NCBI RefSeq assembly: GCF_001270745.1
Contig: NZ_LFXL01000051.1
Span: 1-45,871, forward strand
Source: Jiangella muralis
Lineage (GTDB): Bacteria > Actinomycetota > Actinomycetes > Jiangellales > Jiangellaceae
Direction of reading: 5' to 3'
Length of the DNA stretch: 45,871 nucleotides
Shown here: one piece after another, positions 7,005 through 44,403 of the stretch
How positions within the stretch are numbered: the stretch's first letter is position 1
Layout: each line of letters begins with the position of its first letter
Notes under the pieces: generated by a model
The model's database searches: none
What the model was told of the DNA's origin: nothing
The model's input: the letters and a program-made list of their open reading frames with translations, nothing else
Made by a program: the position numbers and the translations under genes

Positions 7005-7560
7005 CCCCACCTAGATGAGTGAGTCCGATCTTCAGTGGTCGTACGCGGGGTGAGGTGCCCGCCAGGCCGGTCGGCCGGTCCTCGAGGCGGTCGGGCCGGT
7101 CAAAGTCGGTTGTGCCGGGCTTCGCGTTGGCCTGACGTCGCCGCGTGCGCCGTGGTCCGCACGTTGGCCGTCCCCCTGCTGCCCATTCTCTCAGCCGCGG
7201 CGCCGCGCCTCAAGCGGACCCATGGGCGCTTCGCGCGCTGGGTGACCGCTTGACCCGCGGCCCCGCGGCCAAGAACGGGCACCTATCAGGGGGACGGGGG
7301 AAGACTGGGCACACCTCGCCGCCGGCTGCCGTGGCCCCGGGTCCGCCACGGCAACACCCACCGCCGAGTTGGTCATGGTGAAATCGGGGTTCCCGGTCGC
7401 TGGGAACCCCGATGTGCCCATGATCAACCGGGTGGGGCGGCCACTTCACGCGGATCGGGTGCACCTCACTCGCGTCAGCACCGCACAACCGCCGCCGACG
7501 ACGTCCATCCGGCGCTACGGCGGGTGACGTGCTCCCCACGCGAGTGACGTCGACGGCCTG

Positions 7561-7628
7561 AGCCGTCTTCGATAGCCAGAATCGTCCGAAAGGCCCCTCG
7601 AACACGGCTCCCGCCATCGAAGACGGCT
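7561..7628. repeat. Perfect 13-bp inverted repeat inside the dispersed repeat
   Basis: AGCCGTCTTCGAT at 7561-7573 and ATCGAAGACGGCT at 7616-7628 are exact complements around a 42-bp loop. The same pair is kept in copy 2 (43475-43486 and 43529-43540, one mismatch), so the stem is conserved while flanking bases vary. It could form a cruciform or an RNA stem. Confidence 0.75.
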
Positions 7629-7840
7629 CCGGGAATCGAGGACGACCAACGGTGCACCGGCAGGAACGGCCAACGGACATCGGCCAACGGCGCACGGTGC
7701 ACCGGGCGGGCTCTGCCCGCACTTCCCCCGTCCCCCTGATAACTGCCCGCACTTGGCCGCAGCAGGGGGACGGCCCACTGCGGCCATGACGGCCAACCGC
7801 CGCACGACGGCGAACCGCTACACGATCCCCAACGCCACCG

Positions 7841-7922
7841 TGTGAGATCGCTGCACCGGGTGGGGCGGATCACTGTCGCCCTGACGACAGCAACGCCACC
7901 CAGCAAACACAGCGATCCCACA
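7841..7922. repeat. Hairpin unit near the end of the dispersed repeat
   Basis: Outer arms TGTGAGATCGCTG (7841-7853) and CAGCGATCCCACA (7910-7922) pair at 12 of 13 positions. An inner CTGTCG...CGACAG pair closes a six-base loop. Related units occur in copy 2 at about 43793-43873 and 43928-44016. Confidence 0.6.
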
Positions 7923-8034
7923 CCGTTGCGCCGGGCCGGCGACCGAACGCGGCTGCACCTGCGCAGCGGAACCAGCCACGCGACGCCCACTCAAAACTCG
8001 GTTCGAGTGTCGGAGTTTCGGAGACCAAGCGAAG

Positions 8035-10278
8035 CTAGCCGCCGAGGAGCCCGGCCGCCGTCGCTCGCTGGACCGCGCCGTTGCGCGACGAGACGCCCAG
8101 CTTCCGGTAGATCGAGGCGACCTCCGAGCCGACAGTGTTGCGGGAGACGAACAGCCGCTCCCCGATCTCGCGAATGGTGAGGTGCGTCTGCAGGTAAGGG
8201 AGCAACCGAAGCTCCGCCGGGGTGAGCGGCGACGCCCCTGCGACGCTCAACTGGGCGCTCGAGGTGAGGGTCCGGCGGAACTCCGTGACCTCGTCGACCA
8301 GAGCGCCGAGAGCCGGACGGCGGCGCAGGACGTCGTCGATCTCGCGCAGCAGGTGACGAGCGGTGGTGTGGTCGCCGATGGTCGCGTGCACCTTGGCGAG
8401 GTGCAGTCGTGCACGCACCGCGAGGAAGGGCAGCACGAACGTGCAGGACGGGCGGGCCCGCATCGCCCGGGTGAGCTGCCGGCCGGCTTCGGCCAGGTCG
8501 CCGCGGTGGACGGCTAGGCGCGCGGCGGCGGCGAAGGCGAGCACGCTCGCGGCGTAGTCGTGCATGCGATGCGTCTCGATGGTGCCGAGCGCGTGTTCCA
8601 CGCGTTCGGCCGCCTCATCCCATCGGCCACGTTCCATCGCCTCCAGAGCGAGCTCGGCCTCGCCGTCGACGATCGTGTCGGTGTTGCCGAGTGACGCTCC
8701 GACGGCGGACGCCTCCGAGAACAGCGGAAGCGCCTGGTCGGTGTCTCCAGTGAGGAGGTGCGCCTCGGCGGACAGGAGGAGAGCGGTGTCGCGCCACTGG
8801 CTCCACGGCGGCTCCTGGGTGACGGCGCAGTCGGCGTCGATCGTCATCTGCTGCGGGCCGGCGGGACACATGACGGCGCGCAGCATGGCGCGCGCCGAGT
8901 CGAACGACGCCGTGCCGTCCACGGGCACGAGGTCGAACCGGGCAGCGTCGACGATCGCCGCCCAGCGTTGTGCCTCGGCGGTCCGCCCGGTCAATGCCGC
9001 GATCCACCCCGCCAGCACGGCGAGCGGTGGATAGCTCTCGACGGCGGCGTCCCCGAGCGCGGCCAGCCAGCGTTGAACGGTGGAGATCTGGCCGGCGCTG
9101 TAAGTGGGCTGCACCAGCTGCGTCACCAGCCGGACGCATCGGTCCCGCTCGGGTGTGTTCAGGAGGTGCTCGAGGGCGAGCGCCGGAGAACCGTGTGCTT
9201 CGTACCAGTCGGCGGCGCGCAGGTGCAGCTTCGTGATGATCTCGGGCTCGACGCGGCGCAGCTCACCGGCCAGGAACTCCTGGAACAGCGCGTGGTAGCG
9301 GTACCACTCCCGCCGCCGATCGAGCGGGATCAGGAACGAGTTCGAGGCCTCGAGATCGCGCAGTTGCCGCTGCCCGCCTGTTTCGTCGAGGACGGCATCG
9401 CAAAGCGGCGCGTGGAGTTGATCGAGCACGGCCGTGCGGCGGAGGAACCGCTGCGTGCGCTCGGGCAGCCGGCTGAGCGACTCGCGATAGAGATAGTCGG
9501 CCACGTAGGGGTCCGCACCGGAGACCTTCGCACCCTGGCTGCGGCTGTCGCGCGCGATGAGCGCGGCGAGGTAGACGCCGGCCGGCCAGCCTTCGGTCCG
9601 CGCTGTCACCGCGGTCGCCGTCTCGCGCGTGACATCGACGCGGGCCTGCGCGAAGATCTGCCGGGCTCCGTCCGCGTCGAGAGCCAGGTCGCCCGACTGG
9701 AACTCCACGGCGTCGTCCGACGCGCGCAGTCGCGGCAGGTGAGGCTGTTCGAAACGGCTGGTCGCGACCAGTTGGGAGCCGCCGGGAATCCCCGAGATCA
9801 CCACCTCCAGCACGTCGTGACAGGCCGGCGACCGGAGCAGGTGCAGGTCGTCCAACAGCAGCACGAACGGCGCCGGGCTCGCCGCCAGCACCGACGCGAG
9901 ATGCGGCGCCGCACGCCCCAGCGCGGACACGCCCAGACCGCTGACATCGGCGATCAGGCCGGCATCGTCCGGCGAGATACCGGCGTACGCCGAGGCGAGC
10001 AGCGTGAGGAGGGCGGCGGGGTCATCGTCGAAGCGGTCCAGGGAGATCCAGGCGACCCGGCGGTCCTCGGCCAGCGCCCACTGAGCCAGCAGCGTCGACT
10101 TGCCGTAGCCCGCGGACGCGGTGATGCCGACGACGCGTCGGCCGCTCGTGCGAGCCGCGTCGATGAGAGGCGAGCGACTCACCGAACCCGGCCGAGGCCG
10201 CGGCGCCGACAACTTGGCGTCGATCAGCAGCCGATCCAGCTCAACGACGATCGGACCCACCCCCCTTGGGGATCCCAC
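8035..10278 (-). CDS. Large ATP-binding LuxR-family regulator (MalT/LAL type)
   Basis: A 747-residue protein. Walker A is ASAGYGKST (about residues 54-62) and Walker B is FVLLLDDLHLL (about 138-148), typical of STAND-class signal ATPases. The middle third (about 330-660) is helical and TPR-like, the usual sensor region of MalT. The C-terminus holds a LuxR helix-turn-helix, LTPAELRLLPYL followed by LTIREIGERLFVSRNTVGSEV and YRKLGVSSR. It is expected to bind ATP, oligomerise on an inducer and activate transcription; the inducer is unknown. The GTG at 10278 is the upper limit of the start; a second in-frame GTG at 10260 is immediately preceded by AAGGGGG. It is divergent from the CMD-like gene at 10417. 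Its stop codon touches the end of repeat copy 1. Confidence 0.85.
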   Translation of the reverse strand: MGSPRGVGPIVVELDRLLIDAKLSAPRPRPGSVSRSPLIDAARTSGRRVVGITASAGYGKSTLLAQWALAEDRRVAWISLDRFDDDPAALLTLLASAYAGISPDDAGLIADVSGLGVSALGRAAPHLASVLAASPAPFVLLLDDLHLLRSPACHDVLEVVISGIPGGSQLVATSRFEQPHLPRLRASDDAVEFQSGDLALDADGARQIFAQARVDVTRETATAVTARTEGWPAGVYLAALIARDSRSQGAKVSGADPYVADYLYRESLSRLPERTQRFLRRTAVLDQLHAPLCDAVLDETGGQRQLRDLEASNSFLIPLDRRREWYRYHALFQEFLAGELRRVEPEIITKLHLRAADWYEAHGSPALALEHLLNTPERDRCVRLVTQLVQPTYSAGQISTVQRWLAALGDAAVESYPPLAVLAGWIAALTGRTAEAQRWAAIVDAARFDLVPVDGTASFDSARAMLRAVMCPAGPQQMTIDADCAVTQEPPWSQWRDTALLLSAEAHLLTGDTDQALPLFSEASAVGASLGNTDTIVDGEAELALEAMERGRWDEAAERVEHALGTIETHRMHDYAASVLAFAAAARLAVHRGDLAEAGRQLTRAMRARPSCTFVLPFLAVRARLHLAKVHATIGDHTTARHLLREIDDVLRRRPALGALVDEVTEFRRTLTSSAQLSVAGASPLTPAELRLLPYLQTHLTIREIGERLFVSRNTVGSEVASIYRKLGVSSRNGAVQRATAAGLLGG

Positions 10279-41745: not shown

Positions 41746-43227
41746 ATGCCCGTTTCCCCCGTCAGCCGCCGCAACCTGCTGCGTAGCGCCACCGTCGGAA
41801 CCGGCGCGCTCGCCGCCGGCGCCGTCATGACCGAACCGGCCGACGCCGCCGCCCGGCGCCGCGTGTTCGCCGCCTCGTGGGAGGACGTCAAGTCGCACGG
41901 CGCCACCGGCGACGGCGTCACCGACGACCTCGCCGCCATCACCGCCGCCATCGCCAGCGTCGACGCCGGTGGCGGCGGCGTCGTGTTCTTCCCGCCGGGC
42001 GTGTACCGCATCAGCGGCCCGCTGCAGGTCGGCGACGGCAGCGACAGCGCCGTGTCGACCAAGCACCACCGGATCACCCTGCAGGGCAGCGGCCGGGGCG
42101 GCTCGCCGTCGCTGAACTTCGTCCAGAACACCGGCGCCACCGAGATCGTCTACGACGGCCCCGTCAGCACGTCCGCCGCCGCCCTCAGCCTGGAGGGCCC
42201 GCTGCACAGCCTGGCCGTCGCCGACCTCGTCGTGAACGCCAACGCGAAGGCCGGCTACGCCGTACGCGTCAACCACGTCACCGACTCGATCTTCACCAAC
42301 GTCATGGCCCGCGCGGCCACCGTCGCCGGCTGGATCCTCACCTCGCGCAACGGCTTCCCGCCCGGCTGCGTGTACGGGTGCGGCAACAACACGCTGCTGC
42401 AGTGCTGGGCGTACGACCCCGAGCCGAACGCGCACGGCCTGATCATGACGTCCGGGGTGACGGAGTCGATCACCCTCACCGGCAACCCCGACGCCGCCAA
42501 CAACGACGTCATCGGCGGCGTCTTCTTCTACGGCGGCGGCGCCGGCACGGCCGGGTTCTACGTCCACGGCGCCGACAACAACACCGTCTACGGCGCGCAG
42601 GCCATCCCGAGCGGCGGGCGCACCGGCGGCAACTCCGTCTACTTCCGCCCGTGGTCCGGCGACCCGCGGTTCCCGCTCGAGAACGTCTTCCACAACATCG
42701 GCATGAGCCAGCCGGTCGGCGGCACGTCCGGCACCTTCGGGAACATCTTCGCCACGTTCCAGGAGGGCGACGGCGCGCCGGTGCCGATCATGCCCAGCAT
42801 CACGGCGCTGTCCCACCGCGGCGTCCAGGCGGCGTACGGCAAACGGGTCTACCGCAGCCGCGACATCCGCACCGCCGCGCTGCCGGCCGCCGCCTCCGTC
42901 ACCGCGACCTCCTTCACCACGGTCGCCGGCCTCTCCATCGCCCTCACCGGCGCCGTCGCCGGCTCGTCCAAGGTGCGCGTCACCTTCAGCGGCGTCGTCG
43001 AGAAGTCCGGCTCCGGCTCCGGTGAGCTCGCCCTGGCCCTCGACGGCGCCGTCGCCGCCCACACCGTCCAGCAGGCAGCCGCCGGCACCGGCCGCCACAA
43101 CGCCGGCGTCACCGCCGTGTTCGACGCCGCCACCGCCGCGCCCACCCTCGCCGTCCGCGCCCGCTCCACCGACGGCGCCGCCTTCACCGTCCACTCCGGC
43201 TCGATCGTGGTGGAAGAGCTGTACTAG
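41746..43227 (+). CDS. Tat-exported right-handed beta-helix protein (third copy in the window)
   Basis: A 493-residue protein from ATG 41746, six bases after AGGAGG (41734-41739). The N-terminus VSRRNLLRSATVGTGALAAG is a twin-arginine signal (Arg8-Arg9). Then comes WEDVKSHGATGDGVTDDLAA followed by GGGGVVFFPPGVYRISGPL, the N-terminal cap of GH28/pectate-lyase-3-like beta-helices, with parallel-strand repeats up to about 390. The C-terminal 110 residues (VTATSFTTVAGLSIAL, GSSKVRVTFSGVVEK) form a separate beta domain, possibly trimerising or carbohydrate-binding. Follows the GntR gene in the same direction, so it may be co-regulated and release ligand for the importer. Reaction unknown. Confidence 0.82.
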   Translation: MPVSPVSRRNLLRSATVGTGALAAGAVMTEPADAAARRRVFAASWEDVKSHGATGDGVTDDLAAITAAIASVDAGGGGVVFFPPGVYRISGPLQVGDGSDSAVSTKHHRITLQGSGRGGSPSLNFVQNTGATEIVYDGPVSTSAAALSLEGPLHSLAVADLVVNANAKAGYAVRVNHVTDSIFTNVMARAATVAGWILTSRNGFPPGCVYGCGNNTLLQCWAYDPEPNAHGLIMTSGVTESITLTGNPDAANNDVIGGVFFYGGGAGTAGFYVHGADNNTVYGAQAIPSGGRTGGNSVYFRPWSGDPRFPLENVFHNIGMSQPVGGTSGTFGNIFATFQEGDGAPVPIMPSITALSHRGVQAAYGKRVYRSRDIRTAALPAAASVTATSFTTVAGLSIALTGAVAGSSKVRVTFSGVVEKSGSGSGELALALDGAVAAHTVQQAAAGTGRHNAGVTAVFDAATAAPTLAVRARSTDGAAFTVHSGSIVVEELY

Positions 43228-43275
43228 CTGAGTGATCTTGGCTACCCGGCCTGTGTGGCCGGCCGGCCCGTGCGC

Positions 43276-44140
43276 CTGGGTCTGCCGCGTTCGCCGTGGT
43301 CCGCCACGTTGGCCGTCCCCCTGCTGCCCATTCTCTCAGCCGCGTGACCGCGCCTCAAGTCCGCCCAAGGGGTCGCTTCGCGACGACGGGGCGTACTTGA
43401 CCCGCGGTCCCGCGGCCAAGAACGGGCACCTATCAGGGGGACGGGGGCAGTCTGGGCACACCTCGATGCCCGGAGCCGTCTTCGATGGCCAGAAACGTCC
43501 GAAAGGCCCCTCGAACACGACCCCCGCCATCGAAGACGGTCGCAGGAGTCGAGGACACCAAACGGTGCACCGGGCGGGCTCTGCCCGCACTTCCCCCGTC
43601 CCCCTGATAGATGCCCGTTCTTAGACCGCGCGCGTGCGGGTCAAGTCCAAGCCCCCAAGCCCAGCGAACGCCGACCACAGCGGCGCGGACTTGAGGCGCA
43701 CGGGCGCGGCTAAGAAAATGGGCAGCAGGGGGACGGCCCACTGCCGCAAAACGGCGAACTGCGCGTCCCCCTTGCACGATCCCCACCTCACCGTGTGGAT
43801 CCGCTGCGCCGTGTGGGGCGGATCACTGTTCCTCTGGCAACAGCTACGCCACCCAGCAAGCACAGTGACCCCACCCAGTGGCGCACCGGGGGCGGGCGCA
43901 CAGTCGCCGCGCCCAACGATGCGGGGATCGATGTGAGATCGCTGCGGAAACGACGCGGCAACACTGTCGTCGACGCGACAGCGTTCCCACATCGATCACT
44001 CAGCAATCCCACACCGTTGCGCCGGGCCGGAGAGGCGCCACCGGGCTACGGCGATCTCACCCAGTGGGGCGCCGAACGTCGCGACGCCCCGTTCAAGACC
44101 CGGTTCGAGTGCCGGAGTCTCGGAGACCAAGCGAAGCCCC
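43276..44140. repeat. Dispersed structured repeat, copy 2
   Basis: Same order of landmarks as 7130-8034 and in the same orientation. The left part, 43311-43738, is an inverted-repeat element (separate entry). Then follow a hairpin at about 43793-43873, a further related unit at 43928-44016 (inner stem CTGTCG 43964-43969 with CGACAG 43976-43981), and the shared end GAGACCAAGCGAAG at about 44124-44137. No coding sequence is recognised from 43228 to 44148. The copy ends a few bases before the stop codon of a reverse-strand gene, just as copy 1 does. Confidence 0.85.
43311..43738. repeat. 428-bp element with 54-bp terminal inverted repeats and nested stems
   Basis: Left arm 43311-43364 and right arm 43685-43738 pair at about 47 of 54 positions. 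Inside them, 43418-43447 pairs with 43593-43622 at 29 of 30 positions, and 43475-43486 pairs with 43529-43540 at 11 of 12. Three concentric stems therefore share one axis. In copy 1 the inner two stems remain but the outer right arm is reduced to 17 bp. There is no reading frame inside; a non-autonomous mobile element or a structured transcript are both possible. Confidence 0.8.
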
Positions 44141-44148
44141 GGTCGGCG

Positions 44149-44403
44149 TCAGCGCCTCGGTAGCTGGCACAGCGCCCGGTGCAGGCGGATGTCCTGCTGG
44201 ATCTGGCGTGGCACCGGCCAGTGCCGGCGTTCCAGCTCGTCGGCGTAGGCCTCCAGGGCGCGCAGGCTGTCCTCACGCGCGGCGGCCTGCGCGCCCGGCT
44301 CGTTCACCTTCTGCGCGGCCTGCCTGCGCTGTGCGGCCTTGGTGGCGAGGACGCGCGCGAACAAGGAGCCCAGCGGCGGCGGAAGGGCGTCGAGCGCGTT
44401 CAC
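44149..44403 (-). CDS. Small basic helical protein of unknown function
   Basis: An 84-residue protein starting at GTG 44403, overlapping the stop of the upstream gene as GTGA (44400-44403). It is rich in Ala, Arg and Glu, and predicted mostly helical (SLFARVLATKAAQRRQAAQKV, ALEAYADELERRHWPVP). The C-terminal motif PRQIQQDIRLHRALCQLPRR has no family I recognise. Translational coupling and compact size argue that it is real and acts with the product of the gene before it. Confidence 0.5.
   Translation of the reverse strand: MNALDALPPPLGSLFARVLATKAAQRRQAAQKVNEPGAQAAAREDSLRALEAYADELERRHWPVPRQIQQDIRLHRALCQLPRR

Follow-up and report, generated by a model that had tools for sequence, protein, structure and literature searches.

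The window, i.e. the whole stretch of 45,871 nucleotides of Jiangella muralis (contig NZ_LFXL01000051.1) that was analysed, contains two copies of a long non-coding repeat (Table 1). The initial annotation had placed the starts of the copies at positions 7130 and 43276; the repeat itself is confirmed, but its real ends lie further out. As had been proposed, a reverse-strand gene terminates at or close to the end of each copy; its stop codon is at 8035-8037 for copy 1 and is a TGA at 44149-44151 for copy 2. The reverse-strand frame beside copy 2 comprises 87 residues, shows no Pfam match and is absent from the calls of our codon-usage gene script. Copy 2 exhibits a CTAG on its left side and none on its right. 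Overall, 521 of 888 aligned bases are identical between the two copies, and the shared order of landmarks described initially is recovered as blocks of 75-96% identity that follow one another in the same order, with indels between them. The stems reported at the outset are also correct: 29 of 30 positions match between 43418-43447 and 43593-43622, compared with a best 30-bp inverted match of 22 in copy 2 after shuffling (60 base shuffles), and 13 of 13 match between 7561-7573 and 7616-7628.

Table 1. Position of the two copies of the composite repeat in the window and of their parts.
Feature	Position	Strand	Basis or remark
CTAG, left end of copy 1	7011..7014	.	read directly; pattern of ends
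Composite repeat, copy 1 (from end S to end E of the shell)	7015..8034	+	BLAST and end reading
H1 hairpin unit, left, intact, copy 1	7168..7297	+	covariance model match
Guest palindrome H2, copy 1	7565..7624	+	exact-pattern search
Right H1 unit of copy 1, largely deleted	7722..7774	-	limits by eye; single right-hand motif left
CTAG, right end of copy 1	8035..8038	.	includes the stop of the LuxR-type gene 8035-10260, on the reverse strand
CTAG, left end of copy 2	43224..43227	.	includes the stop of the pectate-lyase-like gene 41746-43227
Composite repeat, copy 2 (from end S to end E of the shell)	43228..44136	+	BLAST and end reading
H1 hairpin unit, left, copy 2	43313..43444	+	limits from family consensus
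Guest palindrome H2, copy 2	43478..43537	+	exact-pattern search
H1 hairpin unit, right, inverted, copy 2	43596..43736	-	covariance model match
Shell hairpin arm T	43837..43880	+	match in 40/54 host loci
Shell hairpin K	43926..43999	+	match in 22/54 host loci
Shell end E, approximate inner limit	44076..44136	+	match in 28/54 host loci

The two-copy repeat stands, but the view that each copy is one element does not: each is a nest of three repeat families. A full copy, of about 0.9 kb, consists of a CTAG-bounded shell, within which two inverted H1 units of about 130 nt enclose a variable core. The shell starts with CTAG followed by MTGAGTGAGTCC and ends with ACCAAGCGAAG followed by CTAG, with variants, and has two hairpins of its own, K and T. 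The consensus of shell end S was read by eye, and a 48-base query from this end matched just 4 of 54 host loci (52 fetched loci and the two window copies). The layout of the H1 unit is CCGTCCCCCTG..GCCGCG..CTCAAG..CTTGACCCG..GGCAGCTATCAGGGGGACGG. In the host, the core between the H1 units often contains the palindrome H2, of which an exact pattern, which diverged copies would escape, finds 29 copies in the host, one in genome G009 and none in the other ten Jiangella genomes. Of the 29 host copies, 27 have H1 motifs or, for L060, a degraded H1 next to them: 26 of these belong to the 54 loci and one to L368. The remaining two (L367 and L369) are found without H1 motifs. In the G009 locus L088, the shell lacks H1, is flanked by CTAG on both sides and contains a different guest hairpin. 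As the shell occurs bare in L088 and H2 occurs without H1 in L367 and L369, shell, H1 and guests are separate families. A further palindrome, with arms near GTTGATCATGGAGAA, is present at 7369-7430 of the window and in L276, L287 and L088; it is found within H1 cores, beside H1 units and inside the bare shell, in several species.

The repeat is not single-copy in the host genome, where BLAST with either copy matches many places. At least 58 host loci carry parts of it, namely the 54 loci mentioned above together with L368, L370, L371 and L372, all four of which contain H1 motifs. Host matches to copy 2 are just 70-96% identical, so no recent jump is apparent. BLAST matches were obtained in 10 of the 11 other Jiangella genomes and in none of 28 genomes outside the genus. 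G006 gave no BLAST match and one weak match to the covariance model, and G003 gave four BLAST matches and two weak model matches. An exact H1 pattern was found in 65 stretches of a collection of 84,980 species, from which the host species was possibly left out, and all 65 are labelled as Jiangella. Five fetched stretches (L068-L072) hit a contig end near the repeat; in three of them (L068, L069 and L071), which all reach the contig end, an identical run of 23 bases precedes shell end E. The repeats probably break the assembly. In G009, genes for IS3-like and IS256-like transposases, labelled from their protein sequences, lie beside or between H1 units (L086 and L090), as if insertion sequences targeted these repeats. 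REPs are known targets of insertion sequences, and these copies are taken as hitch-hikers, not mobilisers.

The stems, initially described as better kept than the loops, are preserved by compensatory changes. Covariation was tested on 60 diverse H1 units (3,087 cells) with 500 shuffles and with slid structures as a control. In total, 91.3% of the cells are paired, and 191 cells are changed on both sides, compared with a mean of 84 in the shuffles and 66 in the best slid structure. Two of the five covariation measures do not clearly exceed the shuffles: 18 pairs have a two-sided change against 14.3, a number attained in 17 of the 500 shuffles, and there are 45 further pair types against 48.1. 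The signal comes in part from two alternative types of tip that differ as blocks. Asymmetric bulges are conserved in H1, and the bulge TATC of the 3' arm is nearly invariant.

The element lies directly behind genes. According to the gene calls of our own codon-usage script, which are approximate, 48 of 105 gaps with the element are convergent, compared with 45 of 454 other gaps of the same loci, and divergent gaps are avoided (7/105 against 89/454); the bias towards the stop-codon side and convergent gaps has a Fisher p of about 1e-15. The first H1 unit lies about 290-400 bases from a start; in the sense orientation, its median distance from a stop codon is 81 bases. In the host, TAG accounts for 35 of 69 stops next to the element and for 35 of 206 others (p about 1e-7); a terminal CTAG is seen in 31 of the 69. 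The relatives show no TAG bias beside the element (13/78 against 48/237). The orthologue in G002 of the gene to the left of copy 2 ends in the same CTAG, with the element absent; a CTAG stop without the element was observed in relatives at two sites (G002; G008 and G011), at which one flank is comparable.

The post-stop position, the convergent bias and the strong hairpins would also suit RNA elements under selection, acting as two-way terminators or as 3' end protectors of convergent transcripts. The unit nearest to the stop codon is sense in 119 cases and antisense in 27, which agrees with this reading and is also what the dimer layout would give; single H1 units in co-directional gaps, 12 sense and 7 antisense relative to the upstream stop, speak rather against it and are not decisive. 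Copy 2 has 1 terminator-like site against 0.4 in shuffles, and G-U pairs on the sense strand are no commoner than A-C pairs (133 against 167), both of which weaken the terminator reading. The latter comparison argues against selection on the sense transcript alone, and the wobble test singles out neither strand. In addition, orthologous genes manage without the element, and no Rfam family is found in the window at gathering score; at loose thresholds, L321 gives no match and copy 2 a single one at chance level. A function as RNA is therefore rather unlikely.

The loops of the mini-hairpins point to DNA. Of 48 mini-hairpins in 16 distant hairpins (from plasmids in eight cases, from other genera in five and from G003 and G006 in three), 38 have the form C-TNC-G, with all four bases occurring at N, and none has C-GNA-G on the same strand; for the plasmids this test is partly circular, because their matches were found by similarity to one such hairpin. 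The 132 Jiangella units exhibit C-TNC-G in 87 of 208 mini-hairpins, with TTC in 84 of the 87, and no C-GNA-G. The corresponding counts of C-TNC-G and C-GNA-G are 56 and 14 of 2,017 in coding sequence, and 2 and 5 of 132 in other gaps. On the opposite strand, the C-TNC-G loops become C-GNA-G loops, which are unusually stable in DNA. With DNA parameters, the GNA strand folds better in 119 of 132 Jiangella units and in 15 of 16 distant hairpins; the same preference is observed, more weakly, with RNA parameters (102/132 and 13/16). PMC4513846 describes Streptomyces telomeres as DNA hairpins packed together, in which GCA loops on one strand are closed by sheared G-A pairs. H1 likewise consists of packed hairpins with GNA loops on one strand only, which suggests folded single-stranded DNA. 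The likeness is one of description and, in contrast to telomeres, the Jiangella repeats are internal in the chromosome and present in dozens of copies. The evidence thus leans towards DNA over RNA.

Orthologous sites are filled in some genomes and empty in others. H1 is present at the orthologous gene ends of L051 in 4 of 11 genomes, of L062 in 6 of 12 (one of them with a remnant) and of L057 in 1 of 10. The four genomes with H1 at the L051 gene end all differ in content, and the rest have palindromes of other kinds or hardly anything there. The single genome with H1 at the L057 gene end also has a different neighbouring gene, and a copy in G002 lies about 1 kb beyond this gene end. The one sharp case is that of G008, in which about 1 kb, comprising a single H1 unit and other repeats, separates genes that are about 9-36 bp apart in eight other genomes; no clean target-site duplication is found at this H1 insertion. 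Many other fetched sites are common to several species, a sharing that is partly forced, as the loci were fetched for having the repeat. Some sites, among them those of L051, L022, L026 and L058, are common to species in which their content differs. The copies are homogenised within each species. For 110 of 132 H1 units, the nearest neighbour is in the same genome, compared with a mean of 28 and a maximum of 47 in permutations, and the choice of the relatives' loci by similarity to a host copy works against this result. The left and right units of one locus are on average 0.737 alike, and units of different loci of one genome 0.79. Homogenisation could reflect gene conversion rather than transposition.

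Sites shared with differing content and strong homogenisation within genomes would be expected of old, immobile structure sites of the chromosome (e.g. for a nucleoid protein or gyrase) that gene conversion keeps alike. Such sites are difficult to reconcile with the partial occupancy of the L051, L062 and L057 gene ends, with an insertion of about 1 kb in one species alone, with the patchy spread, and with the presence of related hairpins on plasmids, and we regard this explanation as improbable. It is very improbable that the shell is what remains of a DDE transposon targeting CTAG, into which H1 and H2 were inserted: CTAG does flank both shell ends in copy 1, L052, L053, L056 and L088, but the two ends are, by eye, not inverted copies of each other, and the fetched loci of other species have H1 pairs without recognisable shell modules (of 60 loci, L088 alone gave matches to E, K and T).

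The relatives of H1 extend outside Jiangella. A covariance model, R1, the E-values of which are rough, matched 20 of 296 genomes of the class, comprising 12 of Jiangella, five of one sister genus and three others. The matches outside the genus read as the same hairpin, for which an example from the sister genus is CCGTTCCCCTCGTCGC..GGCC..GTCAAGGG..CCCTTGACCCGC..GGCC..GGCAGCTATGAGGGGAACGG. BLAST with one of these hairpins (L324) matched 21 records of plasmids from Streptomyces, Kocuria, Prauserella and Pseudonocardia, in each case over no more than 80% of the query; nine of the 21 were inspected. As these plasmids were found with L324, a match to the model outside the genus, the link from Jiangella to plasmids goes via intermediates. 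The plasmid and phage collections gave no match to the window copy, the phage collection none to the L324 hairpin and the plasmid collection none to the L321 hairpin. A broader and poorly paired model, R2, matched at least 16 of 396 genomes, the host included, with few candidates scored per genome; its structure holds just 15 pairs, since the outer arms aligned poorly. Genome G155 has eight full-length R2 matches, and six of the seven inspected show a separate hairpin with the same GTCAAGGG..CCCTTGAC tip. These six (L354, L358, L360, L362, L364 and L366) represent a different, very long hairpin family with at least six repeats and this tip. On a small Pseudonocardia plasmid, a related hairpin (L329, 2001-2049) lies close upstream of a rep gene.

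Several known systems resemble the Jiangella repeat in part. Distant relatives of the hairpin lie directly upstream of ssb on a Prauserella marina plasmid (L333) and of ardC on a Kocuria indica plasmid (L334), two genes typical of the leading region of conjugative plasmids. This recalls the Frpo-like single-strand promoters or origins of plasmids, which are folded single-strand DNA, but the Jiangella copies are chromosomal and lie behind genes rather than in front of them. The attC sites of integrons, located behind stop codons, are hairpins of large size with imperfect stems; their folded strand has extrahelical bases, and their ends carry the boxes RYYYAAC and GTTRRRY. H1 units share the size, the imperfect pairing, the extrahelical bases and the location; nevertheless, attC was rejected, as these boxes are absent from the ends of the H1 units (by eye in the alignment), and the Jiangella elements lack cassette genes.

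The closest likeness is to REPs and BIMEs, described in PMC2817692 and PMC1525189 as species-specific families of extragenic palindromes that are present in many copies, have oppositely oriented units separated by mosaic segments, lie in convergent gaps and show compensatory changes. The Jiangella repeat likewise consists of many extragenic copies of an imperfect palindrome, with H1 units in opposite orientation and mosaic segments between them; it lies in convergent gaps, forms species-specific families and shows compensatory changes. REPs are given as about 20-37 letters long in PMC2817692. In contrast, the H1 unit, with its branched tips, measures about 130 nt, outside a range of about 20-40 nt, and is nested with two other palindromic families. 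Furthermore, a search for the Y1 transposase (PF01797) at E 0.001 was positive in 5 of 14 control genomes and in none of 12 Jiangella genomes, so mobilisation by a RAYT was rejected. The repeat thus forms a mosaic family like REPs and BIMEs, in which the unit is unusually large and for which no RAYT was found. Our literature search retrieved no paper on repeats in Jiangella, which does not prove their absence from print, and a letter search with part of the hairpin tip retrieved only papers on other subjects.

Based on these observations, the repeats are probably composite, BIME-like repetitive extragenic palindromes, which are non-autonomous and mobilised from elsewhere. The earlier reading, in which either selection acts on the structure of DNA or RNA or the repeat is a mobile element that is non-autonomous and has no protein of its own, is supported by the many copies, the compensatory changes and the turnover of sites. 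It did not extend to the nesting of three families, the spread across the genus, the position immediately after stop codons or the relatives in other actinobacteria. The core of the composite is the pair of inverted H1 units, which would multiply within each Jiangella species and lies directly behind genes, where both coding sequence and promoter would be left unharmed. In the host, the pair sits within a second palindromic element, bounded by CTAG and located at CTAG stop codons, which often also houses a third, species-specific palindrome. The loops on one strand make a folded single-strand DNA intermediate the most likely route: copying may proceed by transposition of folded single-stranded DNA, of the strand with the GNA tip loops, by an enzyme presumably encoded elsewhere, and recombination among copies may later shuffle the cores. 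More tentatively, H1 could be the form, amplified in Jiangella, of an undescribed class of actinobacterial elements that have a cloverleaf tip of GNA-looped mini-hairpins, fold as single-stranded DNA, reside on chromosomes and plasmids, and are copied by an enzyme other than Y1/RAYT.

REP-like repeats are best known alongside a RAYT transposase, whereas the Jiangella family, large and structured, has undergone multiplication and turnover in a genus of soil bacteria for which no RAYT was found. That three palindromic families are nested in a single slot behind genes illustrates how structured DNA gathers in convergent gaps. Relatives of the hairpin occur in other actinomycetes and on plasmids, in two cases by genes linked to single-strand DNA. 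Either a second kind of hairpin mobiliser or a common function in single-strand DNA may be at work, and this is now directly testable.
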